NCBI RefSeq assembly: GCF_041146795.1
Contig: NC_135172.1
Span: 37,658,623 to 37,722,622 of the forward strand
DNA length: 64,000 nucleotides
Source of the DNA: Maylandia zebra
Lineage: Eukaryota > Chordata > Actinopteri > Cichliformes > Cichlidae
Direction of reading: 5' to 3'
The position numbers and the translations under genes were made by a program. The notes under the pieces are model-generated. The model worked only from the letters and a program-made list of their open reading frames with translations, was not told where the DNA came from and searched no databases. Below, piece by piece: positions 2,576-63,706 of the stretch. Numbering within the stretch: position 1 is the first letter of the stretch; every line of letters begins with the position of its first letter.

Positions 2576-2690
2576 TGTGATAGGCTGGCTACCTGTCCAG
2601 GCTGTACCCCGCCTCTCGCCCTATGGTAGGATAGGATCCGCTCCAGCCCCTCGCTAGCCGGGTAAGGATAAGCAAGCCTATACTGAGCCT
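2576..2690 (-). repeat. Interspersed fish repeat fragment (gtcacagggcgagaggcggg family, reversed)
   Basis: The segment contains 'acctgtccaggctgtacccc' and 'gcctctcgccctatggtagg', the reverse complement of a very common teleost repeat whose forward form reads 'cctatcccagctgtcacagg' and 'gcgagaggcggggtacaccc'. A shorter forward relative of the same family occurs twice near 40.6 and 41.1 kb. The edges are approximate. Confidence 0.6.
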
Positions 2691-18547: not shown

Positions 18548-19404
18548 CTACACATTTCTCAGCAGCCAGGTTGGAGGTGAGATACCAGACTGGGAGAAGT
18601 AGTTCCACCACCATGGTTTTTCCTCCCTCTCTCTCCCACTATCACCCACATCTGGATCCCTGTATTGCTCAAACTGGTTGTAGGGGTCAAATCGATCCCA
18701 TGTGTCTGATGTGGGGAAGAGGTGGTCATCAATATCGGGCTCCACGGGAACCTGGATGCAGGACATGAGTGAAAATGTTAGAGCAGAGGTGAGGAAGGAG
18801 GTAATATTTAAAAGAAGGTGGTACAGAGGGTACAGCGGGACTTTGAAGACAAACCTTCTGCAGGACAAAGTCAACACGTCCAGCCTTGCTCATGGTGTGA
18901 GGCAAATAAACTCTCTTGCTGACCTTGGAGTATCCTTTGGCTGTGGCTGTCACGATGTGAGTTCCAGGGTTAAGCAACCTCCAATAGTCTCCATCTTCAG
19001 CTGGAAGAAAGGCAATAAGTAGACGCAGAACGGTGGGAGGGAAAGTGAAGAAAGTTAAAAGAAGAAAATCAGTAAAATGTGTATTGTCTAAGGTTAATTT
19101 ACACATTTACAAAAGTAAGACTCCAACACATCAAATACTGACATAGTTATGTATACCTGTGGTGACATCTTTTCTAACACCCCTGATGGAAATTGTTGCA
19201 TCTTTTATTCCATTACCATTACCATCCTTAACTATTCCCTTTATTCCTCTGTGGACCTGTTTAGAGAAAAGGAATACAATGGCAAGATTTGTCAAGCGTA
19301 GTTTTTTCCTGAACAGAGTAATTATCCATGCGTTCAACATTATAATTTAGCAATTCACTTACCATCGATGATTTATAGTATAGTATAGTATAGTATAGTA
19401 TATA

Positions 19405-19466
<62 letters not shown>

Positions 19467-22400
19467 TTATGAACATACTACTATATCTTGTTTAACTTTG
19501 AAATATTATTATTTGAACAGATATTTCTTTTTATTCACAGTTAAGAAAAAAAAAGTGGCACTTACAGATTCAAGAAAACTGAGGAGAGCTTCTTTATTCC
19601 TCTTCCATTCTGGGTAAAGCTCAGCCTCTGAGGGGAATTTGTCGCATCCAAGCTCCACGGTTATCTCAAGACAGTTAGTGTGTAAATAATTAAAGTCTGA
19701 CATACCTGCAAAAAGTAGGAGAGGTGCACACATTGTGGGAAACTTGGGGGAAAAAAATTTACGCAAAGAAGTTTGATTTATGTCTTTTGCTGTGAGAATT
19801 AAGGAGTGGAGTTAAAAGTATCTCACCACCAGCAAAACTGTACCACAGTGCCCCATTGATAATCCCCCGAGTTCGATAAAAGGAGGCACCACACCTCTCT
19901 GTGTCATTGTTTGACATAGTGGCATGAGCATCGGCATATGTGCGAGCCAGCTGCTTGAAGACCTGAGCATTGGCAGATTATTGGCCAAGGTAGACATTGA
20001 TTGTTATTAGAAATCTGCTATCTATAAAATTCCACTCCCCTACCTGTTCATCTGGAGTGGGGGAGAACATCCGCTCCTCAAGAGGATGTCTAGAGTAGTC
20101 AAATGGATAGGAGATCACCAGATCCCCTCCGTGGAGGCTGGCAGACTGAACGAAAGGCAGAGACCTGACCCACTTCATCACTGCGTAAGTCTCTGGTGCC
20201 ACCTACAGTAAAAAGAAAAGATTGAATCATTTTTGGAAGCCAATATGAAATAACTGCTGGAGATTATTTCTGGTAATTGTTAGTAAATTAGTACTACCTT
20301 CTTAAGTCTTGATGCATGCTCAATCATCCATGTACAGAAATCCTAAAAAGTTGCTTCTGGTCATCTGGATGTAGCATTTTCAGTGTGAGAAACTAAAACT
20401 GCTAGTTTCAGTCATTATGCAAATGTTCTGGTAATAAGTTTGGGGAAACCTGCAGTCCGCTGGGACTGAAGAAGTCATTTGGATGACTGACAAAACGTTT
20501 CTGCCACTGAAAAATCTCTACGTCCAGAGGAACAGAGTCAACTTTCTGGTACTGCCTTCTTACCTTCCCAAACCAGTATGCGTCGGGAATCGGGATGTGG
20601 TCAGTACGGTAGTGCCTGCTGCGTCGATTCCGGTACAAGACAGACGTAAGGTCCGGAAAGTTCCGGTTCAGGTCAATATTCTGGGCATTGGTTCGACCAT
20701 TGGTCCAACCATTCAACAAGTGACCCTGAAACATTTAGATTCACACTAAAAGCATTAAAATGTGTAAGGCTGCTGAGACTGATGACAACATTAACTGTAA
20801 CGATGTCATGTCCAGACATTAGTAGGTGCCGTGACTATATTAAGAGCAAGATATTATGATTATTAGTCAGGAATCCAAGAAGGAACATGTTAGACTATGA
20901 CTGTTAATTCTATTGTTAACATGAAGACAAAATCATATATCCGTCAAGAGAAAGAGTAGCGAATAGAAGCAGAAACCATTAAGTCTTAAACATAAGATGA
21001 GATGAGATAAGCATTATTGTCATTGTAAGCACAACCATGCAATAAAATTGGAATGAGCACAACTATTTCTTTATCTCATCCAAATAATCAACAAAGTTAT
21101 TTTTTTGGATTATTTAAATTGTTACATGCTGTAAACATTTATGTATATGTGTCCATATACAGAACACATATTTCAACATTCTGTTTTAACTCTCTCTCTC
21201 TCTTTTTTAAATAAATACAAATGGAAAGTTACCACACTACATGCAGTACATAACATTTAAAATATGGTCATATTGATATAAAATGTGTGATACACTCTAA
21301 ACTGTCATTTGTATTTAAATCATGCTCTCTGGATAAATCACTCAGAGCAGTAAATGTGTTTGTGGGTGCTGCTGTATTTAAATTACTGCACAGTACATGC
21401 AATGACAATGGCAGTTCTAACAGTGGACTTCATAATCTTTTTATCAATCCTGTATCAAACAGATGATACACACATTAAAGCATGGAGACAGTCAGTGTAT
21501 TCTTTTTATGCAGAGGCACAACATCAAGGCTGCATGCCTATGCAACATTTCAAATAAATGTTCCACCACCAGTGTTGTTATTCCGAGTATTCATTAAGAG
21601 ATGCCAGCACAGAAGTCTCGCCATGTTTGAGAATCCAGCATAATGCATGCCAGAATAAACAGAGCTCAGAGACTTCTACAACTACTCAACGGGCTAGATA
21701 AGTGAAGCAAGGTACATGCAGATTTCCCACTGCCAGCTATGATATGTATGCACACTTAATTTCAGAAATGTTGAAACCCTGGCAAATTCAAATCAAAGTT
21801 TATGCATTTGTCTGGGAGTAGGTGGACTTGCCCTGGGCAACAAGACTATGTAGACAGACAAGCAGACAGGCTGACAGAGAAAGAGGTAGGAGGTGGAAGC
21901 CTGGAGTCATTTCGTAGAGCTTCTGTGCTTACACGGTTATGTATTAAATAGTTAAAAGTTTCCTCTTAGGTTTCAAATTTCACAGTCCACAATCCACATT
22001 GAAAAGCTCTGTGCATTAGCTGTTCTTAGCAGATTGACCCACTCTTCCACCTTCACACCTGAAGCTGAGCAGACTAAATAGACCAAGATCAATTAATAAA
22101 TTGAGATCGGATAATGACAGTTTGTCTTTTTTCTGTTAACAATATTTACTTCATGGTTGATGAGCTCCGGGTCATTGTTATCCTCTACCTCTGAGGCGGC
22201 TAGCTCATAGCCATCGGGGTTCATGGAGGCTAGAATATGGATGCGAGTGGTGTTGATGATGGTCTGAATTCTTTGGTTTCCCAGGATATATTCCGAACAC
22301 AGGTACTGGGCCAAATAGATGAGCAGCTGGCGGCCCAGCACTTCGTTGCCATGCATGTTGCCCACCAACTTGATCTCTGGCTCTACTACAGTTCATGGAC

Positions 22401-24108
22401 AGAAGTGCAAATCATTAAATCTGCATTCTCTTATTTATTTTTTTAAACTTTTGCCATTTTGAGCAGAACAAGCAATAAACACAAATCAAATTATGTATTT
22501 AGGTAGTTGTTCTGATGAATTTAATAAATGTGTGTGTATGTTTAAACAACCTAGGAGGGGAGGGGGTCAAAATAACCTTTCAGGTATGTTTGTGTCAATT
22601 ATCTACTTTTAAAGAAAGCACCTGGCTTGTTAGCTGACACTATATTGAGAATATATATATTTAGTGTAGAAAATATAAAGCTAGAAACAATTTTAAGAGG
22701 GCTAATATAAAGCCAAACGAATAAAGATGAGTAAGGGATCTTGCATTTAAGACATCAAGCTAAATAATGGTAAAACCCTGCAGAGCTGATAGGAGGTGCT
22801 ATTCGCTGATAAGATCACAAATAGCAATGCTGTATGTAAAATATCTGACCATTTGTTTTCCCCAAGTCTTAGAGAGGTAAAACCTTTTTTTTTTAAATAA
22901 CATCATACATTTGCATTAACCTTCCTTACTCACATAGCTCATGTTGTCCTGGGTTGTTGGTGAACTCAATCACCAGTAGATCCCTGCCCTCAGTGCTCCG
23001 TCCAATGCTGTAGACGTGGGAGATATGAGAGCACTTGGCTGCTGTTCTCTTCAGGATGCTGTACATCTGTGCATTGGAGGTGTAGGTGAACTGAATGATA
23101 GTACTGGGCTCCTGAGGAGAGAGACTGGACAGTGCTTGCTCCTGTCTGGCTGGAGGAGGGACACCAAGATTTAGGGGAAGCCAAGAAGAGTGCTTCAAAA
23201 GAGCGTCAGACTTACTCAGGCAGTATACAGTGCATTAACATGACCTTTACCTTTCAGCCCTGCCAGAGGATCAAAGCAGCCTTCTTGGTCACTGGCAAAG
23301 AAGCGGTCACAATCCAGGAAATAAGGCCAGGCCATCTCAATGGCCTCAAAGGCATGTGTGCAGTCCTTCCTCAGTGCCTCACATGTGCTCCGGCAGGGTT
23401 TGACCATCTTGTCATCTCTGCAGGGTGAGGCCAGTACTGAGCAACCTACAAGACGAATCTCAGGGGAGCACTCCCCATTCAAAAGGCCATGGATGACACT
23501 TAGGAGGAGGTACTCTGCCCCTGACTCTGCCTCCAAACGAGTCCGATGACCAAGGATGTTAGGGAATATGGTTCTGGATATAATGTATACATGATTTTTA
23601 ACAGCATGATTTACATCAACATGTAAAACAATAAAAACAAAAAAACAAACAAAAAAAAAAACAGCACCTTATGAGACCGTTGTGTAGTTACAGTTTTTGT
23701 TGGCACAGATTTCTTGGCCAAGCCCTGTTACTTACCTAGAGTATTCCATATCATTACAATAGCCCAGGTTCAGCTCTGTGCATTTAGCTGTTGGAGCAGA
23801 ATAGATGTAAAGAAAGATAAGGAGTCAAAAAGAGGACACACATGGTTTGACTAAATCATTATTTTTAAGTATTCTTTACATGTTTTTTTCCCCGCCAGTG
23901 CTCAAATATAAAGACTATACTGTAAATCACATATTTACAAGTAGTTTGAAGATAATGCCTTATCTCTTTGGATACAGTTCATATGGATTACATGGTTTGA
24001 GTTTTTCACCAGCCTTCAGAGCTCTGATGTTGTATGATTATGTGCCATTAGCCCTGACTTGTTATGACTTGTTCACTGTCTCTTGGATGAGAGTCAATGG
24101 GACTCACT

Positions 24109-24139
<31 letters not shown>

Positions 24140-25050
24140 GGGGGCAAGCACCATTTGCTTTTATAAGATTTTGTGGGAAAACTGCTAATTTGTCTGATAT
24201 AGTACCTCATCACAGAATAGACAAGCACAAATCCTCCCATACAGGCTGAGCCTTGGTACTGCATTTTTTTTTCTTTATGTCAGAGATTACAGATCTGTCT
24301 CATCTATCTGGAGCAGATGCATGCTGCATCTTCTAGGTACAGCTCTTCTGTTTTACCTGACTCAAAGGTCAGGCCATGCTCCACGGCTAGGTTTACCCAA
24401 TCGTTATTCAATCCATGCAGTTAAAAATTTGTCCAGTAAAAAAAAAATTCACATACGTTTTTCTTCATATGCACTGTTGCTGCATCTTCCTGTGAAAAAA
24501 ATAAATAATACAAACTCAAAAATATATAAACATCGCTCATTGAACGCTAGATGGAGACATCGTAACAACAATCCAAAGAAGAAACTCCATTTAAAATCAC
24601 CGTTTATTCAGAAACAAACAGCAGCTGGCCATGAGTCTGTCACACACATTTATTCTTAAATCTCCCTTACACGTCTCTGCAGAGTCTAATTTGGCTATTA
24701 TGTAATAAAACTGAGAAATATGCAGACTAAAAAAGCGCCTATTAGCTGTCTCGAAGCAGAGAATTAAAATGAATAGGTAGGCCTTAAAATTATTTGAATT
24801 AGTATCCGGGTAACTTAACATCGGAAGTCGAAAGCAGTCTATCAGCTAAACCGTGTGGACGTTAAGTTACATGGTTTAACTCCCACGGACTCTAAGCATG
24901 CATCACAGGTTTGGGTTTGCACGGTACGCGTATTTGTTTGGACCAGATGACCTTACCTAAATACTCGTCTCCTGGATGGCAATTCTGCTGCGGGACGCAC
25001 AACGAAGTTTTCGCCCAGAAAAGAAACATTACCAAAAGTCCTAGCTGCAT
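18548..25050 (-). CDS. cpz: Carboxypeptidase Z (Frizzled-CRD metallocarboxypeptidase), complete
   Basis: CPZ is a secreted, matrix-associated M14 carboxypeptidase that removes C-terminal basic residues and binds Wnt proteins through an N-terminal Frizzled domain. Twelve coding exons in transcription order: 24957-25050, 23736-23787, 23251-23573, 22934-23149, 22189-22385, 20564-20725, 20044-20202, 19827-19962, 19566-19705, 19157-19256, 18855-19000, 18548-18751; all introns are GT-AG and phases agree, giving about 642 aa (human about 652). Order: signal peptide ([14 protein letters not shown]), Frizzled CRD ([20 protein letters not shown]), M14 domain with the zinc-binding HGNE, the NLNRNFPD-type motif (IDLNRNFPD), the zinc histidine in SASLHGGDL and the catalytic Glu in ITVELGC, then a transthyretin-like domain ([16 protein letters not shown]) and a basic tail (KPWWWNYF). 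All active-site motifs are present. An alternative in-frame donor lies in exon 5 (see findings). It sits beside gpr78 on the same strand, as in human 4p16.1. Confidence 0.96.
19375..19464. repeat. (TAGTA)n and (TA)n microsatellite in a cpz intron
   Basis: A short TAGTA tandem passes into a TA dinucleotide run within the intron between exons 19566-19705 and 19157-19256. It generates spurious IYIYIY frames. Confidence 0.95.
20990..21060. repeat. Possible LINE 3'-end remnant in a cpz intron
   Basis: A degenerate GATGA/GATAA tandem is followed by 'cattattgtcattgtaagca', resembling the TTTATTGTCATTGCACA 3' tails of fish non-LTR elements such as the one near 62.04 kb. It is short and diverged. Confidence 0.35.
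24108..24144. repeat. Poly-T / poly-G run in a cpz intron
   Basis: A run of T leads into 26 consecutive G (24119-24144). The exact length of such a tract is often unreliable in assemblies. The tract lies in cpz intron 1, between exons 24957-25050 and 23736-23787. Confidence 0.9.
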
Positions 25051-26317
25051 GTTGGAGTGCTTTGCGCTGCCAGAAAATTCGGTGTGTGATGTGGCAGTGT
25101 GTGTTTGAAGCTGCCACTTTTCGTTTTCTATGCTGGATGATAATTACCACCCACAGGACGGAAACCTCCTTCCTTTGTTTTATCGGTGCATCCCTGACCT
25201 GTAAAAACTGAGGCGAACCAGGAGCGCGGCTGTGCCGATCATATTTCACTGCACAGAGTGCTGTGCGCGTATGTGTGTGTATGTGGGGTGTGGGCACGAG
25301 GAAGAAACGTGGCTTGTGGGGGTGGGAGTAAGAAAAGTTTGTGTCTCTGCCTATTATTTGACATAATAGCGCTGCAGAGGCTGTTCACACACCAGTGTAT
25401 GGATAGATTTGCACCATTAGGGTATCTGAAAATCTTCACCGACCTTCGTATTCCCGGCTTTGGTAAGAATAATAAGCCATTACCAAGCTGTAACAGGGAT
25501 TTAAAGTGCTTAGCAGCAGTTTCCATGGGCTTAAGAGGTAGCAGCAAAAGATTCAAAAATAAGTATGATAGCTTCACAAGATTCTAGATCACAGGTTTCT
25601 AATTTTTTCGTTTAACCGTTCAATATTGGATACTTCTTGATTTTTATGCATGAACAGAGACACGTGGAAATATAAGTTTAAAATATGTTCAGTTCATATC
25701 AGTTAATAAAAGATCACGATCATAATATTTGACTCACTAGTCTAGACTGATGCAGTATTGCAGTATACACTCACTTTAAGTACTCAAATAGAAGACTCGA
25801 TTTTCATCTGTGGCAGTGGAGTTTATTTTTGAAAGTGCTCTGATATAACAATTTCACACATCTTCTTTGTATCTATTTTTGCACTCTATTTCAGTCATTA
25901 ACACAAACAAAATGTAAGCATAAAACAATAATAAATGAGCAAATGGACAAATCCAGTGTTATCACACTTTATAGATACATTTCCACAGTACTAAACATGT
26001 TGCAGTTTTCATGTGGTTGTGCATCTCCAGGCAAACTAATGAGCCCTATGGAAACAGCAATCTGTAGAGGCTGAAAAGGCTTCGGCACACATCGGACGTG
26101 AGAGGTGCCGTTCAGTATGAATTGTTATGTGTCCTTCACAGCTCTCCCAGTGGAAAATAATGTTCCTTTAACAGTCACATGACACAGTTCTTTGTTAAAA
26201 AGTCCTTGAGCAAGGCATTGACTTCTTTCAATCTGCTGACCTTTTTGACTTTAAAGACTGTGACCTTTTACAAAAAAGATCAAAGCATTAAATCATTTAA
26301 AAATGACCACATCAAGC

Positions 26318-27940
26318 TCAAGTAATCCTGGCAAGACAGCTGTCATCTGTGGTGTCAAATGTGCTGCTTGCACTGGTCACAGACAGTAAGTAGTGATCTT
26401 TTCCTACAACTCGGCTGATAATACTAACCAGGACCTTCCTGTACTGCTGCCGCAGAAGACAGTAGACGAATGGGTCACTGGAAGCCTTGGCATAGAACAA
26501 GCATTTGGTGGCAATGCCCCAGTAACGAGGGATGCGCACAGAGGGCAACAACTCCACCAACCTGTGGGAGTAAGACAGAAAAAGTAAATTCCACTTCCCC
26601 GGATGTGTATTTATAGCATGGAAAGTTATGGAAACAACAAAAGGCATCTGTTGCCTTCATGGGGGTTCTTCCCCTGTTATATTGGTTCAGAGGCAAGTTG
26701 TTTTATATTTTTACTGTTCAAATAAAGGGTCTAATGCAATCCACTGCAACATTCATACAATGAATGAAACCTTATTAGGGCTAATTATGATGCTGTGTTA
26801 CAGAAGTAATGACTCAACTTTAAGGAAGATGTATACATTCTAGATATATTCGCGACTTAATATTATAAAATATAGAAGACATTCACATTTTAAAACAAAG
26901 TTCAGTCAAATGTCACAACGGACTTGGTGCCATGCTGCCATTCCACTTAACTACACTGGAAGGCTTACCTGGTGATAACATATGGTGAAAAGCAGAGGAT
27001 GAAGGAGCCAATGAAGACGCAGATCTTTTTAGTGGCGCGCTGCTTTCTCTTCTTCCGTTGCGCTAGGCACCTCTCCTTCACACTGATAAAAAAAACCACA
27101 TTAATTTCTGACATTAATAATTAATAAACTCATTAACATGTTACCTAATATTACGCAACCGTTTTTTTCAGTATGGCGTAACTGGTAGAGATTTATTTTA
27201 TCCAATTAAGCTGTTTTGAAATCAGAGGCATGTCAAACTTTTTTTTTTTCAAAGAAAACACTCTACCTGGGGTGGATATCAACCAACAGAAGCAAAGTCT
27301 GCACTGTAATTACATCTATCCTCTTGCAGTGTGACTTAGCCACTCTCAAAACTTTCAGGTAAGCGAAGCACAAGACGAGGAGGCAGAGCGCAAAGCTGCT
27401 ACCGTGGAACAGCGCTGTGAAGGTGGCGTAGATTCCCAGCTGAGACACCTGGTCCAAGTCCAGGTGAACTGTGCATGAGGCGTAAGTGTAGCTGTAGCCT
27501 CCCCAGTTCATCATCAGCTGAGTGAGAGAAAAGATGAGAGAGTGAAGCCAGGAGTAGGCCACGATCAGAAAAGCGTCCCTGTAGCGCATCTTGCTGGAGT
27601 ATCTCAGAGGAAATACTACCGCTATCCACCTGTCCATGCTCAGCGCCGCCATGCTCAGCATGGCATTACTGGTGATAAAAGTCTCGGCAAAGCTGACGAC
27701 GTGGCAGAACAAGTCCCCCAAGGGGTTTGCGCCACTGACCACCCCCAGAAAAGTGGCAGGCATGTTGATAATACTGAGGAGGATGTTAGATAAAGAGAGA
27801 TTTATCATAAAGATTCCTGGTACATGGGCTCTTAAATCGCTGCTCTGAACGAAACATAGCAGTACCGACAAGTTGGTCAGCAGAGAAACAACAGCTATTA
27901 TCACAATGGACACTTCCAGAAGGAACTCCGGTATGCTCAT
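26318..27940 (-). CDS. gpr78: Orphan class A GPCR, GPR78 (GPR26/GPR78 family), complete
   Basis: A seven-transmembrane orphan receptor at the plasma membrane. Three coding exons in transcription order: 27267-27940, 26969-27082, 26318-26561, with matching phases, give about 343 aa. TM1-TM5 lie in exon 1 (starts MSIPEFLLEV), TM6 in exon 2 (KKICVFIGSFILCFSPYVIT) and TM7 in exon 3 (CLFYAKASSDPFVYCLLR). The DRY position reads DRW at residues 103-105 (SMDRWIAVV), as is usual in this family. Cys79 and the cysteine in YASCTVH can form the TM3-ECL2 disulphide. The TM7 motif is DPFVY rather than NPxxY. GPR26 and GPR78 are close paralogues; I chose GPR78 because of its position beside cpz and near htra3, matching human 4p16.1. 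GPR26 lies elsewhere in human. Confidence 0.9.
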
Positions 27941-28380
27941 ATCTCGTGGTTCGTGTTAGCAGCAGCTGTGGGGAGGATGTTATGGAGAGTCCGCCATGCT
28001 CTCTCCTTTTGCCCCCCACCAGCTATGACGGATAGTCATTGCCACGTGCCAGACGCGCACTTGTGAGCCAAGCAGAGAGAAAGCGCTGTCCGGTGCTGAA
28101 ATGCCTCAACAAACCTTCACGTCAGTGTTGAGATAAATAACTTAAAAGTTGTTTAAGATTTCTAGGAACTCAAATACTACTGATCGCGCCGATTTCTCCA
28201 CTAATGACAGTAGTTTAGTCCAAATTGAAGAGCTGAGCAAAGGATAACACGAGATTGCCGGGTGGTCTCAGCGCTTACTCGCGATCATGCGCACTATCCG
28301 GCGCCTCCTCTCTCACTGGCAATGCCGTGCGCCCTGCACGTGCGGTCGGTGACTGGCTCATGTGACGCTTGAACAATATC
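27941..28380 (-). promoter_or_regulatory. GC/CpG-richer region upstream of gpr78 (probable 5' UTR and promoter)
   Basis: This segment, directly upstream of the gpr78 start, is richer in CpG than the surrounding AT-rich DNA (for example GCGCACTATCCGGCGCCTCC and CCTGCACGTGCGGTCGG around 28290-28350). A CACGTG E-box-like core is visible. No clear TATA box or transcription start can be placed. Assignment rests on position and composition. Confidence 0.45.
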
Positions 28381-42196: not shown

Positions 42197-42198
42197 TA

Positions 42199-43805
42199 CA
42201 GCGGGGAAAATAAGTATTTGACACATCAGCATTTTTATCAGTAAGGGGATTTCCAAGTGGACTATTGACACAACATTTCCACCAGATGTTGCCATCAAGC
42301 CAAATATTGAAGTCATACAATCAAATCAGAACATATAAGTATACAAGTTAAACCATAATAAATAAAGTGAAATGACACAGGGAATAAGTATTGAACACAC
42401 TTTATTCAATACTTTGTAGAAAAGCCTTTGTTGGTGATTACAGCTTCTAGACGCCTCTTGTATGGATAGACCAGTCGTCTGCATTGCTCAGGAGTGATTC
42501 TGGCCCATTCTTCCACACAAACGGTTTTTAAATCTTGAAGGTTCCTTGGGCCTCTTTTATGAACTTTAATCTTCAGTTCTCTCCATAGATTTTCTATGGG
42601 ATTTAGGTCAGGTGATTGACTGGGCCATTCAAGCAACTTGATTTTCTTTCTTTGAAACCACTTCATTGTTTCCTTGGCCTTGTGTTTGGGATCATTGTCT
42701 TGCTGAAATGTCCACCCTCTTTTCATTTTTAGCTTCCTGGTAGATGGCAGCAGATTTTTATCCAGAATGTCCCGGTACATCTCTCCATTCATCCTGCCTT
42801 CAATAATATGAAGTCTGCCAGTACCCCTTGCTGAAAAGCAGCCCCAAACCATGATGCTTCCACCCCCAAACTTGACTGTTGGTATGGTGTTCTTGGGGTG
42901 GTGAGCAGTGCCATTTCTTCTCCAAACATGGTGTGTAGAATGACTGCCAAAAAGTTCAATTTTGCTTTCATCTGACCATACTATAGTCGTCCAATAATCC
43001 ACAGGCTTCTCCAAATGCTGTTGCGCAAATTTTAACCGAGCCTTGACATGCTTTTTGTTCAGCAATGGAGTCTTGCGTGGTGAGCGTGCATGGATGCCAT
43101 GGCGGTTCAGTGCATTGCTTATAGTTTTCTTTGAAACAACAGTACCTGCTGATGCAAGGTCTTCCTGAAGTTCTGTCCGAGTGGTTCTTGGCTCTTGGAG
43201 AACCCTCCTGATTATTCTTTGGACTCCTCGGACAGGGATCTTGCGTGGAGCACCTGATCGTGGCAGGTTTATGGTGAACTGATGCACTTTCCATTTCCGG
43301 ATAATGGCCCCCACAGTGCTCACAGGAACATTCAGCATTCTGGAAATGCACCTATAACCATTCCCATCAAAATGCTTTTCAACGATAAGATTACGAAGAT
43401 CTTGAGAGAGTTCTTTGCTTTTACCCATCATGAAGTCTTTCCTGTGTGCCTTCTGGGTAATGAGGAGCCTTTATAGGCCATCAATTAGGACTAAAGCAGC
43501 TGATATCAATTAGTACTGATAGGGGACAGGATTTCTCTATCAATACTGACAGATTTCAGGTGATCTCCTGGCTTTCTATGTCATTTTGCCCCTTGTTATC
43601 TCCATGTATTCAATACTTATTCCCTGTGTCATTTCACTTTATTTATTGTGGTTTAACTTGTATACTTATATGTTCTGATTTGTTTGTATGACGTCAATAT
43701 TTGGCTTGATGGCAACATCTGGTGGAAATGTTGTGTCAATAGTCCACTTGGAAATCCCCTTACTGATAAAAATGCTGATGTGTCAAATACTTATTTTCCC
43801 CGCTG
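42199..43805 (-). mobile_element. Complete Tc1 transposon with IR/DR-type inverted repeats
   Basis: A 1607-bp element bounded by TA dinucleotides (42197-42198 and 43806-43807). Terminal inverted repeats of about 197 bp (42199-42395 and 43609-43805) start CAGCGGGGAAAATAAGTATT and differ from each other at only about three positions by my reading. Each repeat carries an outer motif (ggggaaaataagtatttgac) and a similar inner direct repeat (cagggaataagtattgaa), the IR/DR layout known from Sleeping-Beauty-like elements. Between them lies one intact transposase gene. Low repeat divergence indicates recent insertion. It sits between gpr78 and the 3' end of htra3. Confidence 0.95.
42406..43431 (-). 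CDS. Tc1-family DDE transposase, intact, 341 aa
   Basis: Cut-and-paste transposase of the enclosing Tc1 element. The length of 341 aa is the usual full size for the family and there is no internal stop. An N-terminal paired-like helix-turn-helix region (about 1-60, starts [15 protein letters not shown]) is followed by a GRPR-like linker variant (LPRSGAPRK, about 56-64) and a second HTH region with [12 protein letters not shown]. The catalytic DDE domain shows the first Asp in [12 protein letters not shown], the second in [14 protein letters not shown], and the Glu in [15 protein letters not shown], a DD34E spacing by inspection. The domain also has the [12 protein letters not shown] glycine-rich block. 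The first of the two tandem ATG codons is taken as the start. The gene is single-exon and depends on the element's own termini, not on nearby host genes. Confidence 0.95.
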
Positions 43806-43807
43806 TA

Positions 43808-44194: not shown

Positions 44195-44200
44195 TTTATT
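44195..44200 (-). other. Candidate poly(A) signal AATAAA for htra3
   Basis: AATAAA on the minus strand, 218 nt downstream of the htra3 stop codon, is a plausible position for 3' end formation. No transcript evidence is available. Confidence 0.45.
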
Positions 44201-44417: not shown

Positions 44418-44737
44418 TCAATGTACCAAAAGCTGTGGGTGGATATTGAAGAGTAAGTCATCGTTCCCTCTGCGAATCTCAAGTAGGAGTGGCTGGTCGC
44501 TCTGCAACACCTCATGGATGTCTTCAGTGGTCCTGACTGGCTTTGCATTCAACTTCACTATAACGTCACCTTCCCTAATCCCTCCTCTAAGACATGGAAA
44601 AGAAAAGAAGCTCGAGTCAACCGTTTACTACAAGTGTGCCAGAAAGAGAAAAAGAAGATTCAGACTTATAATGACATCATTGTCCATAAATCTGCAATCA
44701 CTTTCTGGAAGTATGAAACAGGGTGATATCATTTGAA

Positions 44738-44793
<56 letters not shown>

Positions 44794-47700
44794 TTTGCAG
44801 GTGTGTGTGAGCATACTTTTCTGCTGGAGTGTTAGGTATGACCTGCCGCACCAAAACTCCACTACTGATGTCGGGGAAGTCTGGGTTATGAAGTCGCAAC
44901 TCTTCTACAAGACTGTGGCACACGTAGGACACAATATTAATGCTATTAACACATTTTTACACATTATCATTTCAATTATGTAAAAAAAGGAAGTGCATCA
45001 CATAAAACTAATTCCCTTTTCGGACATACTCAGACATGCAAACATTTGATTTTCTATGAAACAGCTCCTGCTGACAAATCAAAGGTAAAGTTGTTTGGCT
45101 ACAGACAAAGTAGACAAGCAGCAATACCAGCTCCTGAAGCCAACTTATGTTTCCCATAGAATAACACAGAATTTGTCGGTTTGTTTGTTAAATGATTTAT
45201 TCACAAAACAAATGTTGCTCTTAGTATTATTTGGGTATGCCACCTTTATCTGTAGTAGGAAGTGTATTAAAGAACATTAGTGCAAAATTTATTTTCTCCT
45301 TACAGTCTAATATGTGTGTGACTTTGTAACAACTTACGCTTTGGTGATGGTGACCATCCAGATGCCTAAAAAATGTCTCTTAACTAGGGACGCGTCTGAA
45401 AGCACAACAATATAACCATAATTTAAACACAGCCTCATGCAAAGGCTAAGTTGGGCTGACGGGGAAAGATGAGCTGAGGAGACAGTTAATAACTATTTTA
45501 TTAAACACATATTAAAATATAAATGTAGCCATTAAAATTATAGTCCAAATCCTGAGGATTTCATTTGTTATTAAAGATCTATTAACTTTTAGTCTACACT
45601 CTTAACTGCATGTTTTGCCATATATGTAAATAGTTATAATATTTGCACAAAAACGTCTTGTCTCTCACCTGCATCAGACTGTGGTTTGTCCATTTTTCTT
45701 TTCTGCTGTCTCTTTTCTGTCACAACAAAAACCAGTCAGAGTAGTAGGTAATGAAAATTAGAGACATATACTGGGGGGAAATAGTCATTTAAAGATATTT
45801 TAGATAATAAGATGATAAACTTCACAAAAAAAAGTCACCATCTTTCTTGTGTTTAATCTGTGACTCTGAAAGAAAGCGGCTGATGCGGTCTGCCGGTATA
45901 GCGAAGGAAATTCCTGCTGTCACTTTAAGAGTGTTGATTCCAATCACCTCACCATCCTGAAGGAAACACAAACACATGTTGAAAGACAAACACAACATGA
46001 TGGCTGCCAAAAAGGACTTGATGCTGACATAAATATCAGCCAGTAAGAACTGAGAAAAATATGTCAAGATTTTCAGAAAAAAAAACTGCATCAGTTGGTA
46101 TGTAGAGCCGAGCATGTGGCACAACTACAGTTGCTATGATATATTGATAAAAACACAATGCATGTGCCTTTTTAAACGTGCACTCGTTTATGGCGTTATA
46201 AATGTGTCATTACACAGAACACTTTAAAGCATGTGACGCATGATGTGTCACGATTGTGTCCCAGTGTTACTGCAGTCAATAAAAATAAACTGCACGTTTC
46301 TACTTTGAGCTTTTTTATAATTAATATTAGTAGAACTCCAGAATTGGAGTAACAGCTATAGCCGTTAATCACTGGCCACAAGAAAATATGCTTGAACAAA
46401 TCTGTAAATCAATTTTGAGCCATTTTGAGTTCATAGTTCATGGGACACAAGAGGGTTTATAAAACAAGCAAAGACTGTATCATATCGCAGGTTTTTGTGC
46501 TTTGGTTCTGCATTCTGGTTTCTTAGTATTTTTGAGTCTTAGTCATGTTTTATTTTTCTAATGTTTGAAGTTTAGATTTTTTTTTCAACCATATATATTT
46601 AATATGTGTAATATACTGAATTATATTTATGAAATAGAGCCGTTTCTATTTATTAGTGCTCGTTTGCTATATTTTTCAGCCTTGCAATACACTGTATTAT
46701 TTCACTAGTTTAGATAGTTACTCTTTTTGTTATTTTGGAGCAACTGTGACCACATAATTTTCTTAGGGATTAGTAAAGTGTTTTGATTCTGATTTTGTGT
46801 TTGTTGAACATCTGGATTTCCTGTTTTCATTTCTTGTTCTCGTAGAGCGTGAGTTTTATTTTTTTATGATATCTTGTGTTTTGATATTAGCAAGAGTTTC
46901 CATGTGTGTTCGTTTGTTAATTGTTAGTGTTTTACTTTGAAGGTTTGCTTTCTTTTGTGTCTTGCGTCAGTTTTGCTTCCTGTGCTCCTCTCCCTACTGT
47001 TTTCATCAATAATAATTTTTCCGTAATTATAATCCTGTCGTCCCTTTTTACTGTTGATCTTTGGAATTTCCTGTGTGTGCTCCTCCACTTCCCTTTCATG
47101 CTGTCCAGTTTATTTTCTTTGGAATTAACCTGGTTCTTTGTTCTTCTTTCTAGATTCTTTGGGTTTTCGTGACTCTTAACTTTGTGCTTCTTGGAGTACT
47201 GTTCAGCTGGTAAAGCTCACATTTTGTTTGCATTCTGTGCCTTGTTATGCACACATCTACAAAGCTATTTGTGACAGTTAATAGTTTCTTTAAATGTGCT
47301 GCAATACATACAACAAAATCAGGTATAATGTCTGTAGTGTATATCACACTTAAGCTCCCTCTGTGCTTTGGCGAATAATACGTTTGTGATATTCAGGCTC
47401 ATATGACAATTTGGTGACTCATAACTGTTTATGCTGCGTTGGTGAAAACTCCGTTCTTTGTTTGAGGCCAAACTGAAAACACTCCAAAATCAAATGGATC
47501 ATCTACTGTACCTTAGAGAACACCACTTACCAAGTTAACAAGAGGTCCTCCCGAATTGCCGTACTTGACACAAGTATGGAAGATATAAAATAGAAACAAG
47601 CACAACAGTAATTCTTACACATATGGGAATATTAAAAGACAATTATGTAGTTCAATAATGCAATCAATGTGTATAGATGGAGATATTTAAAAATGTTTCA

Positions 47701-50700
47701 CGTTAATAATAGCATCAGTTTGGATGTAGTCCATGTCTGAGTCCTTTATGCCCAGCTCTTTGCCATCTCTTTGTGTAGTGCTGACGATGCCGGTGGTGAC
47801 AGTGTTCTGCAGGGCGAAAGGGCTGCCAATGGCAACCACAAACTCTCCTGGCCTCAGATCAGCCGAACTGCCCAGAGACAGCACGCGAAGTTTCTTCTGC
47901 TACAACAAGCACAAAAAAAACCCACTCAAAAAATACCAGCACACAGGCGAAAACGCGAGTATGTCAGAGCAACACAGATGAAAAGAAGAAAAGACATTTA
48001 GAGGAAGAGGAATAGTTGAAAGCTTACAAAACTCTCCAGGTATTTCAGACAGGGGTGTGAGATTACACACATCAGCGCTCTGTCTGTGACTCACGGAGCT
48101 AGTGTTTATGAAAGTCTTATTAATGTCTAGCAGAAAACTGTCAGATGTTGACAAAGAAATGTGTCAGGATGTGGGGCTGTGTGGTTTATGTGGGCTCATT
48201 TAAGATTTATGGATGTAAAAAAATCTAAAGATTCATGTGTTTATATTTGAAAAGGAGAAGAGGGTAGAGAAGCTTATGATGATAGCATGTCAGGGCTTGT
48301 GCCCTTACCTGTGGATTGACCTTGATTGTAGCAATGTCTGCCTTCCTGTCTATGTCTTTCACCACGGCTTCATATGCATCTCCGTCGTGGAGCTGAACAC
48401 GCAGCTGTGGCCTGCCTGTCACCAAGGCAGCTGTGGTTACCACATGAGCGTTGGTCACAATCACACCTGAGTGGGACACGATGAACCCAGAGCCACTGGA
48501 GAGCCGCATGTGGCGACCTAAAAGAGGATGCCTGGAAACAGAGGGTAAATGAAAAATTATTAAAGCGAACATGATTAATAATAACAATAATAATTAAAAT
48601 GTGCTTTTCTTGCATATATTTCACATTCTGGTTGCCCTATATAGAAGTAATTTTGGCAGCTTGGAGAGTTTTATGCCTTAATGTGATGTGCTTTGGACTA
48701 AATTGTATGCTTAATTTTATGCATGATTTGAATTTTATTTTAATTTTAAGCTTAAATTTGAATGTAATTTTATGCTACTTATAATAGCAGGCAAACAGCA
48801 CTTGATTGGGCCCAATATCCCTAAAACAGCCTGTTGAGGAAACAGGTTGCACTCGTTTTTTCTTACTTGAGATCAAAGCAGACAAATCAAGCCATTATGC
48901 TATAAAACAATATAAATAAGCAATTTTTGTTATTTTTATACACATACACAATCCAAACCTTAAGAACAGCTCAATGTGGACGACAGCAGGGGCTATTTTC
49001 TCCACGACATCAGCAATGAAGTTGAACTTGTATCGAGGGCTGCTGAGACGAATCAGGGTACGACCTATACTGACAAGAAAACCCCACCAAAACATTAATA
49101 CAGACAGCAATCAATCTATCTATAGCTACAGTTAGGTCCATAAATATTTGGACAGAGTCAACTTTTGAAACAACTCACACTTTCAGCTTTAATTTAGTGG
49201 GTTGAACAAAAAAGATGCATAAAAATGTGAGAAACTAAAGCATTTTTGTAACACAATCCCTTCATCCCAGGGGACTCAAAAGTAATTGGACAAATTAAAT
49301 TACTGAAAATAAAATGTTAATTTCCCATACTTGGTTGAAAACCCTTTGCTAGCAATGACAGCCTGAAGTCTTGAACTCATGGACATCACCAGATGCTGGG
49401 TTTCCTCCTTTTTAATGCTCTGCCAGGCCTTCACTGCAGCAGCTTTCAGTTACTGTTGTGGACCTTTCTGTCCACAGTTTAATCGTGAACAAGTGAAATG
49501 CATGCTCAGTTGGGTTAAGATCAGGTGACTGATTTGGCAACACAAGGATATTGCACTTCTTTGCTTTAATAAACTCCTGGTTTGCTTTGGCTGTATGTTT
49601 TGGTTCATTGTTTATTTTTATTATGAAACACCGGCCAATCAATGTGACTCAGTTTAGCTGGATTTGAGCAGATACATCTTCAATAAACATTAGTGTCCCT
49701 GTCCGCCACTGGCAGCCATGCACGCTCAAGCCATCACACTGCCTCCGCCATGTTTTACAGATGATGTGGTTTGCTTCGCCATACTTTTTTCTTGCCATCT
49801 TTCTGGTAGAGGTTGATCTTGGTTTCATCTGTTGAAAGACTGTTCTTCCAGACCTTTGCTGGCTTTTTTAGAATTTTTTTTTTTTTTAGCTTGTCCAACC
49901 TTTTTATTCTTGAGGTTTATGATTACAACTTCCTCCTGGAGAGTCTTGCTCACTCGGCTGGCTGTTGTGAAGGGGTTTCTCTTCACCATGAAAATGATTC
50001 TGCGATCATCCACCACTGCTGTCTTCTCTGGACATCCAGGTCTTTTTGCATTGCTGAGTTCAGCAGTGTAGGTTTTGCCACTTCTAATATTGTAGCAATG
50101 TCTCTGATGTTTTTTTTTCTGTTTTCACAGCTTACAGATGGCTTGTCTCACCTGCATGGAGCGCTCCTTTGATTGCATGTTGTCTGTTCAAAGAAAAATC
50201 TTCCCAATGCAGGCAGCACACCTCAAATCAATTCCAGGACTTTTATCTGCTTAACTAATAATGACATAATGAAGGAATTGCCCACACCTTCCTTTGAATC
50301 AATTTTCCAATTACTTTTGGTCCCGTTAAAAAGAGGGTGGCATATGTTAAGGAGCCGAAACTCCTAAAACCCTCATCCAACCTGAATGTGATATCCTCAA
50401 ACGAAAGCTGAGAGCCTACACATTATGTCCATTATATAACTATAATTGGAATATGTTTCAGTAAACAAAAAATAAAAAACCAACCTTGCCTCAGTGCCCC
50501 TAATCTAGATATTTTATACACACGTATGCGCACACGAATGCGCACACGTATGCGCACACAAATATGCGTACACAAATATGCGTACACAAATATGCGTACA
50601 CAAATATGAGTACACAAATATGTGTACACAAATATACACATATACACATATATGTGTATATATACCCATATATAGGGGAGACCGGGGATAGTTGTAACAT

Positions 50701-51556
50701 TTTTGACATTTCTGTCTGTAAATTGAAGCTCTTTTAAGGTAGTGGATTCAAAATGTAATGCAAAGTATTTACATGTCTCTGCTATTAAATAGTGCAGCTA
50801 TTTTCTCTGCAGCACAATTACCCATTGCATGGTATGGTCTCAAACACAAAGAGTGAAATGTTACAGTTAACCCCATAGTCTGGGTTAGTTAGCAACACAG
50901 AGAACCTGTATAAAAAAGCCCAAAGCCGACTGTACTTCCTCAGGAGGCTGAGGTCTTTTAACATCTGCAGGAAGCTCCTGAGGATGTTTTACCAGTCAGT
51001 GGTTGCTGGAGTACTTTTCTATGCTGTGGTGTGCTGGGGGAGCAGCACAGCAAAGAAGGACTCATCCAGGCTGGAGAAACTGATCAGGAGGGCTAGCTCT
51101 GTGGTCGGCATGAAGCTGGACACTCTGGTGACAGTGGCAGAGAAAAGGACACTAAAGAAACTGATGGACATTATGGACAATGCTGGGCATCCTCTGCACA
51201 CGGCCATTAACAACCAGAAGAGTCTGTTCAGTGACAGGTTGCTTCTCCCCAAGACAAGAACTAACAGACTTAAAAACTCCTTTGTCCCACACGCCATCAG
51301 ACTGTTTAACTCCTCTCTGGAGGGGAGAGGGAGGGGAAACAGGAGGACAAAGGAGGGGGGAACAACTAAGCTGTAGTGCCTCTTCACCTCACTGTACAAT
51401 ACCTTTTGTGCAATACTTTTGTAAATAGTCAACGGTGCAATAGACTCAATACTTGAAATGTGCAATTCACTTGTATTTTTATTTCTATTCCTATTTATTC
51501 TATTTATCCCCTTCGTATATTTTATTTATATTGTCTCTGTATTTATATATGTGTGA

Positions 51557-51610
<54 letters not shown>

Positions 51611-53333
51611 CTGTAACTCTGTAACTTCTGTCGGTGCTGTGCTTTTTTTGGAAATCGAATTTCCCAGAGGAACCCACCCGAGGGATTAATAAAGTTCTAT
51701 CTAATCTAATCTAATCTAATCTAATCTAATCTAATCTAGTTGTAACATATCCTGGGGTAAAATGTAACACAATGAAATAAGGGTACTGACAAAATATTAA
51801 CATGTAATCTTTGTTTATTCAACACATGAATGCACTTAGAGCCATTTATATAGCTGTGTGTGTGTGTGACAGAATGCAGAAATCTAGCTTTTGAACATAT
51901 TCCAACCCCCCAAAAAAGACAAATTATGGAATTTTCTGCAACTGAATATTTCATTAATTTTGGTTGGTCTTCCTTGAGTTTGGCCTCATTGGCACAGTGG
52001 GCATTATAAACTACAGCTCTTGCACCAATTTTGAACATAACAATGAAGCTGAAAAAATGTAGTTGTGCACCAGCATCGCAATTCCATTACTTTTTACCAT
52101 GGCTTACCATGGCTTTGCAAACCACACCAAGTGTGGTTTGCAAAGTGCTTCAGAAAGATGAGGAAATCTGTTTCTTGCACCCATCCTGACTTATTTCCAC
52201 TACCAGTACTTCCTACTGGTCCATCTCTGACACAGTGGTCTGCATAATGTATGTGTGGGAACACAAACAGTGGAGGAATTGTGTTGCCAATGGCATTAAC
52301 CGCATATACAAAAGCGACCAGTGAAGCTCTCTCTGCTGATGTCGTTGCCCCAACTTGTTTAATATAAGTTAAAGTAATAGTGTGGCAAGTTGTAACATCT
52401 GCATTATTGTTACAACTAACCCAGACTGTTGCTGTTACAACTGACCCAGACTCCTATAGCCATGAACTAGCTTACATTACAGCCAACGGCTAAAACACTA
52501 GCACTAAAGACTTACACAGAATATATCCCCATAGACATACAAATAACATAATTTAAATTTGATGAGTTTAACTGCAAAGCAGATAATGCTATTAAACATT
52601 GAAATAAAGTAGAAAAACTTACTTTTTGGTATACAAATTACTTTTTTTCATGTTAAATTGTCTGTGTTTGACAAAATGTGCTGATTTTTCACATGTGATA
52701 GCAGAACTGAATTGGGCATGCACAGGATGAGTCACATCATTTGAAACTTAGCCCTGATTGGAGAAATTGGAAGTGTTACAACTGACCCACGTTACAACTA
52801 TCCCCGGTCTCCCCTACATACATATACACATATATACCAAATCCGGGAAAAAAAACTATTCTACCCTGTACATTCTAGGTTTGTGGCGACCTTAAAGCAA
52901 CCCTACCTGCTCCTAAAGGCGAACAGGGTCCTTTGTGCGCTTGGCTGACCGCGGGTCTCCCCTTGAGTAGAGTTTTCCGACTGGCTGCTCTCATCTTACA
53001 CACATTTCCATACGTTTTCCCGTCGCTCCCACACACTTCATGGTCCATCTTACACCGACAGACCCCTTTGGAGCCTCGCCGCTTCCCCGCAGCGAATAAC
53101 TTGCACTCCAATCCATCCCCGCAGGGCAGGTCGTCTTTGCGGCCGCAGGGGTCTCCTTCACGCGGGGAACACACCAGGCAGCAGTTACATCTGTCCGGAA
53201 CGTAGCCACCGGGACAGCTGGGGCTCGGGCACGAGCTCACATCGCACCGGGAGGTGCACTTGTCAGAGCGAATGGCTTCGGTGATTTCGTGCGCAAAGAA
53301 AAACGCAGCCACAAATATAAAGAGCTGCATCAT
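44418..53333 (-). CDS. htra3: Serine protease HTRA3, complete
   Basis: A secreted HtrA-family serine protease of the extracellular matrix. Ten coding exons in transcription order: 52907-53333, 48959-49064, 48309-48531, 47702-47896, 47531-47563, 45839-45956, 45669-45716, 45338-45395, 44817-44912, 44418-44586; phases agree and total 1473 nt, 490 aa (human long form about 453). Order: signal peptide ([13 protein letters not shown]), IGFBP-type domain ([16 protein letters not shown]), Kazal-like domain ([18 protein letters not shown]), trypsin-like domain with catalytic His207 (TNAHVV), Asp243 (KADIATI) and Ser321 ([11 protein letters not shown]), and a C-terminal PDZ domain (about 390-485) ending [16 protein letters not shown]3 is preferred to HTRA1 or HTRA4 by sequence ([29 protein letters not shown]) and by neighbours. 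Oddities: a lysine-rich 48-nt exon before the PDZ, and tandem acceptors at exon 2. Intron 1 is about 3.8 kb and mostly transposon. Confidence 0.96.
44739..44789. repeat. (TG)n microsatellite in the last htra3 intron
   Basis: A TG run of about 50 bp reads as (CA)n in the htra3 transcript. It starts about 27 nt after the donor of exon 44817-44912, inside a 230-nt intron. Confidence 0.96.
45669..45716 (-). other. htra3 48-nt lysine-rich microexon (possible cassette exon)
   Basis: The acceptor 'gttgtgacag' precedes an exon encoding [16 protein letters not shown], followed by a GTGAGAG donor. Its length is a multiple of three and its flanks are phase-compatible, so skipping it would keep the frame (GAT G|AC). 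The comparable stretch of mammalian HTRA3 between protease and PDZ domains is shorter, so this exon appears to be additional. Confidence 0.75.
46480..47190. repeat. T-rich repeat-like sequence in htra3 intron 5
   Basis: A long T-rich stretch with motifs such as 'gtgttcgtttgttaattgtt' and 'ctttggaatttcctgtgtgt' resembles the diverged interior of fish LTR-type repeats and parts of 32290-32640. There is no coding content and the family is not assigned. Confidence 0.3.
49129..50505 (-). mobile_element. Degenerate Tc1 transposon in htra3 intron 1
   Basis: The left terminus, next to a TA, starts CAGTTAGGTCCATAAATATT, the classic end of a widespread fish Tc1 family. The minus strand around 49410-49640 encodes a decayed catalytic end including [15 protein letters not shown] and [12 protein letters not shown], where the catalytic Glu is retained within TEHAF. 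The right inverted repeat is badly eroded (approximate end). It lies only 64 bp upstream of htra3 exon 2. The second half of the gene has multiple frameshifts. Confidence 0.85.
50517..50670. repeat. Tandem minisatellite, 12-14-nt units
   Basis: Units evolve along the array from TGCGCACACGTA-like 12-mers through TGCGTACACAAATA 14-mers (three near-identical copies) to TGTGTACACAAATA, and then run into TA/CA-rich simple sequence. Confidence 0.9.
50891..51736 (+). mobile_element. 5'-truncated Rex1/CR1-like LINE inserted in the pogo element
   Basis: A plus-strand frame from about 50894 to 51376 encodes the C-terminal end of a non-LTR reverse transcriptase polyprotein: [38 protein letters not shown] and [13 protein letters not shown] 3' UTR with TG/TA microsatellites follows, ending in a (TCTAA)n tandem (51698-51736) typical of fish Rex/CR1 elements. 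The pentamer TAGTT occurs just before (50886-50890) and just after (51737-51741), fitting a short target duplication. Truncation at the 5' end is usual for LINE copies. Confidence 0.88.
52127..52360 (-). pseudogene. Pogo/CENP-B-type transposase fragment
   Basis: The minus strand reads [20 protein letters not shown], then [20 protein letters not shown], then [20 protein letters not shown], the central DDE_1-type region of fish pogo-like transposases. The frame is open across about 78 codons with no helix-turn-helix or complete catalytic set. An exact 13-bp inverted repeat (tttgcaaaccaca and its complement) overlaps its end near 52114-52144. Confidence 0.8.
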
Positions 53334-53679
53334 GTCAATAGTGCCAGAAAGCTTAAATAAATATGATATAGATATATATATGCCCTCACAAAATCATATT
53401 AAATTACTACATTGAAAACATTGGGGTTGCTTCTTTAAGAACTAAAAAGTAATCTAAGTACAATCTCCCGTGGCTCTTCTGGCTAAAAAGGACTACAAGC
53501 CAAGCCGTCTATGTCTGCATATTTTTACAGCCTTGTGACTTTAGTCGTTCTCAAAAGTGGTGTAAACTCATCGCCTTGAAGTGCACTTCCGACGGCAGGC
53601 AACTAAAATAAAACAGATACTGCGCGCCATCTAGTGGAAACAAAAGCTCATAACAGACATAACTGCAGGGAAGCTTGTA

Positions 53680-55114
53680 CACGTCAGAAATTTACATACA
53701 CTCATCATGGGCATGAATGTCCTGGTAGTTTGGGCTTCTGATTCCTTTGAAACGGTCTTTATCTTCAAAAAACCAAGAACTGGGTGCACTTTATTTTTTT
53801 TAATTTTGCATTTTCTCCAGTTCTTGCAAAGTCACAAAGTGTAGATACAGGCTCAGATATAGACGTACATTTATTTAAATATTTTAATAAGCAGTGCTGA
53901 AGGTTCTACATTATACTTTTACTTGACAAATGAAAGTCCTGTTAAATTTTCATTAGTGTTCATGATTGATTACTTGGTTGTTTTTCCTTTGCCAGTACTC
54001 ACTGGATTGAGCAATACTTCGAACAACAGGAAAGCCCAAGAAATTCAGTGACAATTTAAGAAGCGGAATTGTAGATTTACACAACTTAGGAAGGTCTTTC
54101 AGGGCCATTACGAAAAAACTGCAGATTACAAAACCATTAGCTCAAGTTACTGTATCTATGTATGAGTTAGTGAGACGTGTCACCGCATTGCCAGGATCTG
54201 GAAGAAGATCCAAACTGTCATCCTGGGATGAGAATAAACTGGTTAGGATGTTCTGGAACAGCCCAGGAACCGTCAAGGTTAAAGCGTGAACTGGAAACTG
54301 TTGAAACTCCAACATCACTGTCCACAGTAAAGCAAGTTTTACATCCCCATGGAACGAGAGACTGCCAACCCAGAAAAAAAAGCCCCTGCTTCAAAATCGA
54401 CACGTCATCACTGATATTTTCACTTTCCCACCACAGGCATGAGCCTAATGCCTTCTAGAGGAAAGTTTTATGTTCAGATGAAACAAAGATTGGGCTGTTT
54501 GGTCACTATGACAAGAGGCATGTTTGTAGGGGTAAAGGTGGGGCTTACAAACCTAAGACACTGTACCAACCCTCAAACATGATGGTGGCAGCATCATGCT
54601 CCGGGGGGAATTCTTCAAATTCTTCAGCTTCACCTCAAATCAACACTTAGAGAAATCTAACTTGGACAGAGTTGAGTGTTCCAGCAGAAAAATAACCCTG
54701 AACAGACATCAAACTAGTTTTAGAATGGATAAAACAGGTGAACATCAAGCTTCTGGGATGGCCCTCCCAAAGCTTCAACTTAAAGCCAATTGAAAATGTA
54801 TGGATTATGCTTAAACACCAAGTCTATTCCAGGAAACCGACCAAATATCCAGCCAAAATTATGTCAGAAGTTTGTTGATTGCAACCAAGAGCGACTTGCT
54901 AAGGAACATTTAACCAAATAGTGGGTTGTGTGTATATATTTGACCCAGTATGGATCAGATTAAAATAAAAAATAAACTCAAACTTGACTTTTGAAGTAAG
55001 TAAAGGTGTATGCTGTACAATCATTCCACCGTGGATAAAGAGCCGTTTAAAAAAGCCCCAAATTACCAGGACATGCATGCCCATGAAGAGTGTATGTAAA
55101 CCTTTGACCACAGC
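53680..55114 (+). mobile_element. Degenerate Sleeping-Beauty-like Tc1 transposon
   Basis: Left-end sequence 'agaaatttacatacactcat' with 'gggcatgaatgtcctggta' is mirrored at the right end by 'aaggtttacatacactcttc' with 'gggcatgcatgtcctggtaa' in reverse complement, and TA lies at both outer edges. The interior plus strand holds a heavily mutated transposase region (about 54050-54890) with recognisable blocks such as 'gggctgtttggtcactatga' and 'catgatggtggcagcatcat'. No intact frame remains. It occupies most of the htra3-pi4k2b intergenic space. Confidence 0.8.

Positions 55115-57226: not shown

Positions 57227-63706
<6,480 letters not shown>

Follow-up and report, generated by a model that had tools for sequence, protein, structure and literature searches.

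Positions 42199–43805 of the window, a 64,000-nucleotide stretch of contig NC_135172.1 of Maylandia zebra, hold a DNA transposon. We interpret it, with a probability of about 0.9, as an autonomous cut-and-paste DD34E Tc1 element with IR/DR ends, and as a member of a single, very young family that has 35 insertions in this African cichlid genome. All 33 uninterrupted copies of the family are intact and nearly identical, which makes it a good place to watch transposon invasion and silencing in a fast-speciating group. Comparable young families of the ZB transposon have been published (PMC9777934; PMC7913693, excerpt), which limits the surprise; the element is ordinary in kind and unusually clean in degree.

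Organisation of the element and its transposase

The complete element is 1607 bp long, the same as 32 other genomic copies, and carries its transposase on the reverse strand (42199..43805, −). It extends from CAGCGGGG at 42199 to CCCCGCTG at 43805 and adjoins a TA target-site duplication on the left (42197..42198) and on the right (43806..43807). With these termini and flanks, the boundaries given in the preliminary description are exact. Inverted repeats of 201 bp are positioned on the 5′ side (43605..43805, −) and on the 3′ side (42199..42399, −) of the transposase. The repeats align without gaps and differ at four positions, three of which are within the first 197 bp, in agreement with the earlier account of 197-bp repeats with about three differences. 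Each repeat contains an outer and an inner direct repeat, also recognised before, which are spaced by 174 bp and share the core AATAAGTATT. The outer and inner direct repeats are located at 42209..42225 (+) and 42383..42399 (+) in the left arm, and at 43779..43795 (−) and 43605..43621 (−) in the right arm; these are the only four sites of the core within the 64-kb window. By its layout, the element can be assigned to the IR/DR subgroup, which is defined by inverted repeats of about 200 bp with outer and inner direct repeats.

The transposase is encoded by an open frame of 341 residues (42406..43431, −). It is composed of an HTH_SB (PAI) DNA-binding domain (residues 2–53; 43273..43428, −; Pfam PF25787), an HTH_Tnp_Tc3_2 domain on the RED side (residues 72–140; 43012..43218, −; PF01498), and a DDE_3 catalytic domain (residues 150–301; 42529..42984, −; PF13358). 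All three score above the Pfam cut-offs, and the protein thus combines paired-like helix-turn-helix domains with a DDE_3 domain. The catalytic domain contains the triad D154, D245, and E280, with 34 residues between D245 and E280, which defines the DD34E type; the triad is the same in all 33 uninterrupted genomic copies. The full-length frame and the three DDE residues reported earlier are therefore both present. An AATAAA motif overlapping the TGA stop codon of the transposase (42401..42406, −) may serve as the element's own polyadenylation signal. Scans of the window for Rfam families and tRNAs gave no matches.

A structure model of the transposase was calculated from 80 sequences, with a mean pLDDT of 83.7 and a pTM of 0.57. 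Its best structural match is the catalytic domain of Sleeping Beauty (5cr4), followed by Mos1. For the protein alignment, the window protein was combined with 79 of the 120 matches listed from a total of 6923, picked by eye; the 41 listed matches left out were mainly over-long, fused, or partial. Of the 134 columns with a conservation of 90% or more, the window protein deviates at two, compared to zero to 14, with a median of three, among the 79 relatives. The two deviating residues, S156 and K251, occupy columns with 95% threonine among the aligned relatives, which weighs somewhat against an autonomous element, yet every one of the 33 uninterrupted copies carries them, and they are common to the public protein clusters P0001 and P0002.

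Copies of the family in the genome

The genome, comprising 962 Mb in 63 contigs, was searched for copies using a 31-bp terminus as a probe, with up to two mismatches allowed. The probe matched 35 sites in the forward and 35 in the reverse orientation, with zero mismatches in all 70; its reversed control had no match in the genome. Pairing of the termini resulted in 35 elements spread over 17 contigs, 33 of which are exactly 1607 bp long and two longer. The 33 uninterrupted copies align without gaps, and the 341-residue frame is open in each of them. They contain 46 variant alleles, 41 of which are singletons, and encode 15 distinct proteins, the commonest of which is shared by 19 copies and is identical to the window protein. 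When calculated for 32 copies, without L033, the mean distance to the majority sequence is 2.06 differences in 1607 bp, corresponding to 0.13%. The pairwise distances among these copies average 3.8 differences (0.23%) and reach a maximum of 11; 30 of the 496 pairs are identical. Two positions separate the window copy from the majority sequence: one variant is common to eight other copies, and the other is private and silent (42526, −; sense position 1280).

The preliminary description regarded the window copy as intact and recently inserted, and the alignment of genomic copies, with all 33 frames open and a mean distance of 0.13% from the majority, supports this view. A departure from the family consensus at essential residues had been named as evidence to the contrary; such a departure is absent, as the window copy encodes the majority protein. 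Its intactness does not set the window copy apart from the other copies of the family.

The argument for recency that the preliminary description drew from the similarity of the inverted repeats fails. The two repeats differ at five sites in 21 of the 33 copies, at six sites in two, at four sites in four including the window copy, at three sites in four, and at two sites in two. The mismatch states are family-wide and predate the insertion in the window. Moreover, among ten variant alleles located in the repeats, six are identical to the base in the opposite repeat, for which the chance is about 0.8% per variant. Alleles of the opposite repeat were found at sites 65, 113, 123, and 158, in copies L026, L037, and L042, and in L040, L043, and L044. 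Site 113 has the states C/A in 27 copies, A/A in three, and C/C in three. The C/C state occurs on two backgrounds, with 294C in L037 and with 65T in L026 and L042, which suggests that one end of an element has repeatedly been converted by its other end. In L040, L043, and L044, the A/A state may result from conversion or may be ancestral. We rejected inverted-repeat identity as a measure of age, and it must not serve as an insertion clock in such families.

Conversion between the ends of one element raises the alternative that the family is old and that gene conversion between scattered copies has preserved its uniformity. We consider this highly improbable, since none of the 70 termini has a mismatch, right up to the TA, and the prevalence of singletons among the variants argues against homogenisation by conversion. 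Furthermore, a nucleotide search of the genome, in which 40 of 763 candidates were scored, identified no intermediate or decayed copies of the family. The next-best matches among the scored candidates, after the young copies, are four pieces with 72–80% nucleotide identity. The jump from 99–100% to 80% suggests a recent arrival, or regrowth from one copy, in line with a young family.

The coding changes among the copies comprise 20 replacement and ten silent changes. The neutral expectation is 21.5 replacement changes out of 30 (P = 0.55), and the counts reveal no purifying selection among the copies. The chance of finding zero stop codons in 30 coding changes is 0.28. The frames are open in all copies because the family is young, and selection is neither needed nor visible. 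The function of each single copy is therefore a prediction. The copies could have been moved in trans by another transposase, with their own proteins inactive, as the lack of visible selection on the coding sequence and the unusual K251 would allow. This explanation is quite improbable, given that all 33 uninterrupted copies have the open frame and that the terminus search found no shorter derivatives with both ends, every paired end enclosing 1607 bp or more.

The TA target-site duplication characteristic of Tc1/mariner elements flanks the window copy and is present on both sides of 31 of the 33 copies. Copies L019 and L038 have TG on the right flank, which reflects either a change in the duplication after insertion or an atypical target site. 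The target sites of the 33 copies show a palindromic, AT-rich preference, with A at position −3 in 28 copies and at −1 in 21, and T at +1 in 26 and at +3 in 29. Target sites of ZB and Sleeping Beauty are likewise palindromic and AT-rich (PMC9777934). We propose that the transposase, by means of its paired-like helix-turn-helix domains, would bind both direct repeats in every inverted repeat, cut at the ends of the element, and reinsert it at a TA within such a site. Copies L013 and L031 (G000:C3:28264230 and C3:28293623) are about 29 kb apart on one contig and perhaps represent a local hop.

Clade, age, and mobility

The window element shares with Sleeping Beauty (SB100X) the domains and fold, the DD34E triad, and the IR/DR ends. 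The identity of the two proteins is 57% for the 227 catalytic residues compared, 45% for the 99 DNA-binding residues, and 53% for both sets combined. Members of the Sleeping Beauty clade have more than 80% coding identity within the clade (PMC9777934), and the 53% amino-acid identity over the pieces compared places the window element outside of it. In addition, the window element is natural and intact, whereas Sleeping Beauty was rebuilt from dead copies (PMC9777934).

A closer likeness is to ZB (Tc1-8B_DR), a DD34E/Tc1 transposon of zebrafish from the clade of Passport (PMC7913693, excerpt; PMC9777934). ZB is 1597 bp long, compared to 1607 bp here, and both elements have a 341-residue transposase, 201-bp repeats, and TA target sites, matching the ZB layout of about 1.6 kb, 341 residues, and terminal inverted repeats near 201 bp. 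The two were likened by layout; they come from different hosts and probably differ in sequence. Intact full-length copies account for 19 of 20 ZB copies in zebrafish (PMC7913693, excerpt) and for 33 of 33 uninterrupted copies here, and both families are young. ZB is active in cells, according to the same excerpt. It has been reported from 193 species of Cichliformes (PMC9777934).

In the protein tree, the window element belongs to an 11-row clade (100/100) that includes all five 341-residue proteins among the 120 matches listed. A separate clade of 56 rows consists mostly of 340-residue members and includes proteins from Xenopus and Salmo. Layout and tree position together make it most likely that the window element is a member of the ZB clade. 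It is rather unlikely that it belongs instead to the ZB-like sister clade or to another clade of the Passport lineage. In favour of this reading, the layout of ZB-like elements is similar (PMC9777934, Table 1), and ZB was compared by description. However, the ZB transposase has 341 residues, the length that within the listed matches is confined to the clade of the window element. The hosts of the 56-row clade fit the range of the ZB-like clade, which reportedly covers Anura and many fishes (PMC9777934).

The nearest relatives of the window protein among the matches listed are two clusters of the public protein set, P0001 and P0002, with 98% and 96% identity and 97 and 31 members, respectively. 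Both differ from the window protein at residues 49 and 148, which are V and T in the 33 copies, and P0001 differs also at residue 21, which is F in the 33 copies; P0002 starts later than residue 21. A first age estimate based on F21, V49, and T148, from the comparison of the window protein with P0001–P0008, was dropped, as none of the three residues varies among the 33 genomic copies.

Substitution rates for dating were borrowed, one of them being 3.5e-9 per generation. The other, 4.13e-9 per site per year, is the rate applied in PMC7913693 (excerpt). Private changes correspond to approximately 0.19–0.22 million years or generations, and the total distance to 0.32–0.37 million, at these borrowed rates. 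The window copy alone gives 0.15–0.18 million years or generations, with 95% limits of about 0.004 and 1 million. The family is thus roughly 0.2–0.4 million years old on borrowed rates. For scale, the divergence quoted for species pairs of Lake Malawi is 0.1–0.25% (PMC11753138, excerpt), and 15 recently active families have been described in A. calliptera (same excerpt).

We propose that the family would have arisen by amplification of one or a few copies, roughly during the past few hundred thousand years. Because horizontal transfer has been reported for 252 of 313 ZB species (PMC9777934), it is reasonable to suppose a similar origin here. There is close to an even chance that a ZB-clade transposon reached the cichlid lineage horizontally no more than about a few hundred thousand years ago and that its invasion continues, in view of the intactness of every uninterrupted copy and the lack of old or intermediate family members among the scored genomic candidates. 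If so, insertions should segregate within and among sister species.

It is distinctly possible, if short of probable, that the burst is already over and that the intact copies have been silenced by piRNA or methylation and no longer move. The private changes per copy, of which there are up to five, imply that not every copy dates from the present day, and piRNAs directed against transposons are expressed in the gonads of cichlids (PMC11753138, excerpt). On the other hand, 13 of the 33 copies have no private change, and in Astatotilapia latifasciata the Tc1-Mariner superfamily, the level to which the observation is limited, is among the most expressed DNA transposons (PMC6027319, excerpt). The window copy is probably still mobile, or was so until very recently, and judged by its sequence it is a strong candidate for present mobility.

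Other mobile elements and neighbouring genes

The two longer copies of the family are interrupted by other insertions. L046 (G000:C2:18482545-18487278) contains at 749–3256 a 2508-bp element with the ends CAGTGGCGTGTC and GACACGCCATTG, flanked by the 8-bp duplication TTTGATGG. The duplication and the short inverted ends are presumably the signature of a hAT-type transposon. The insert has at least 37 further near-full-length places in the genome at 96–99% identity, with 40 of 4165 candidates scored. L051 (G000:C16:34726658-34729627) is interrupted at 1821–2577 by a 757-bp LINE-like piece with a poly-A tail, without a clear duplication and probably truncated at its 5′ end. The insert of L046 must have arrived after the Tc1 family had spread to that site, and so did that of L051. 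Tc1-Mariner, hAT, and LINE-Rex-Babar elements make up most of the difference in recent activity between M. zebra and O. niloticus (PMC6447674, excerpt).

Within the window, a blastn search with the element matched only the element itself. A tblastn search identified four relics with 27–46% amino-acid identity and in-frame stop codons in each, located at 2329–2439 (+), 49327–49797 (−), 54264–54839 (+), and 58100–58234 (−). The dead Tc1 remains that the preliminary description had taken for other copies thus belong to other families. Viral contigs contained no exact match to a 26-bp terminus, and neither of two pattern matches to the protein alignment was confirmed as a relative. Three matches to a 19-bp piece in prokaryote contigs, from two bacteria and one archaeon, were taken as chance. 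The terminal sequence of the element was not found in the main text of the papers searched.

The exons of an HTRA-type protease, with IGFBP, Kazal, trypsin-like, and PDZ pieces, extend over 44418–53393 of the window (−). We tentatively take the gene to be htra3 on the basis of synteny. The transposon starts 612 bp past the stop codon of the protease (44418–44420) on the same strand, with an AATAAA at 44195 between them. Exons of a carboxypeptidase Z-like gene with an Fz domain, and a receptor of the GPR26/GPR78 type, are located at 18729–27955 (−), and we take the receptor to indicate an African cichlid host distinct from O. niloticus. Among 120 listed of 453 matches, the receptor exon shares 98% identity with a cluster headed by Oreochromis niloticus and 92% with Amphilophus citrinellus, and the other named matches with at least 97% query coverage are at 85% or lower. 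Several residues of the exon product are not those of the O. niloticus protein.
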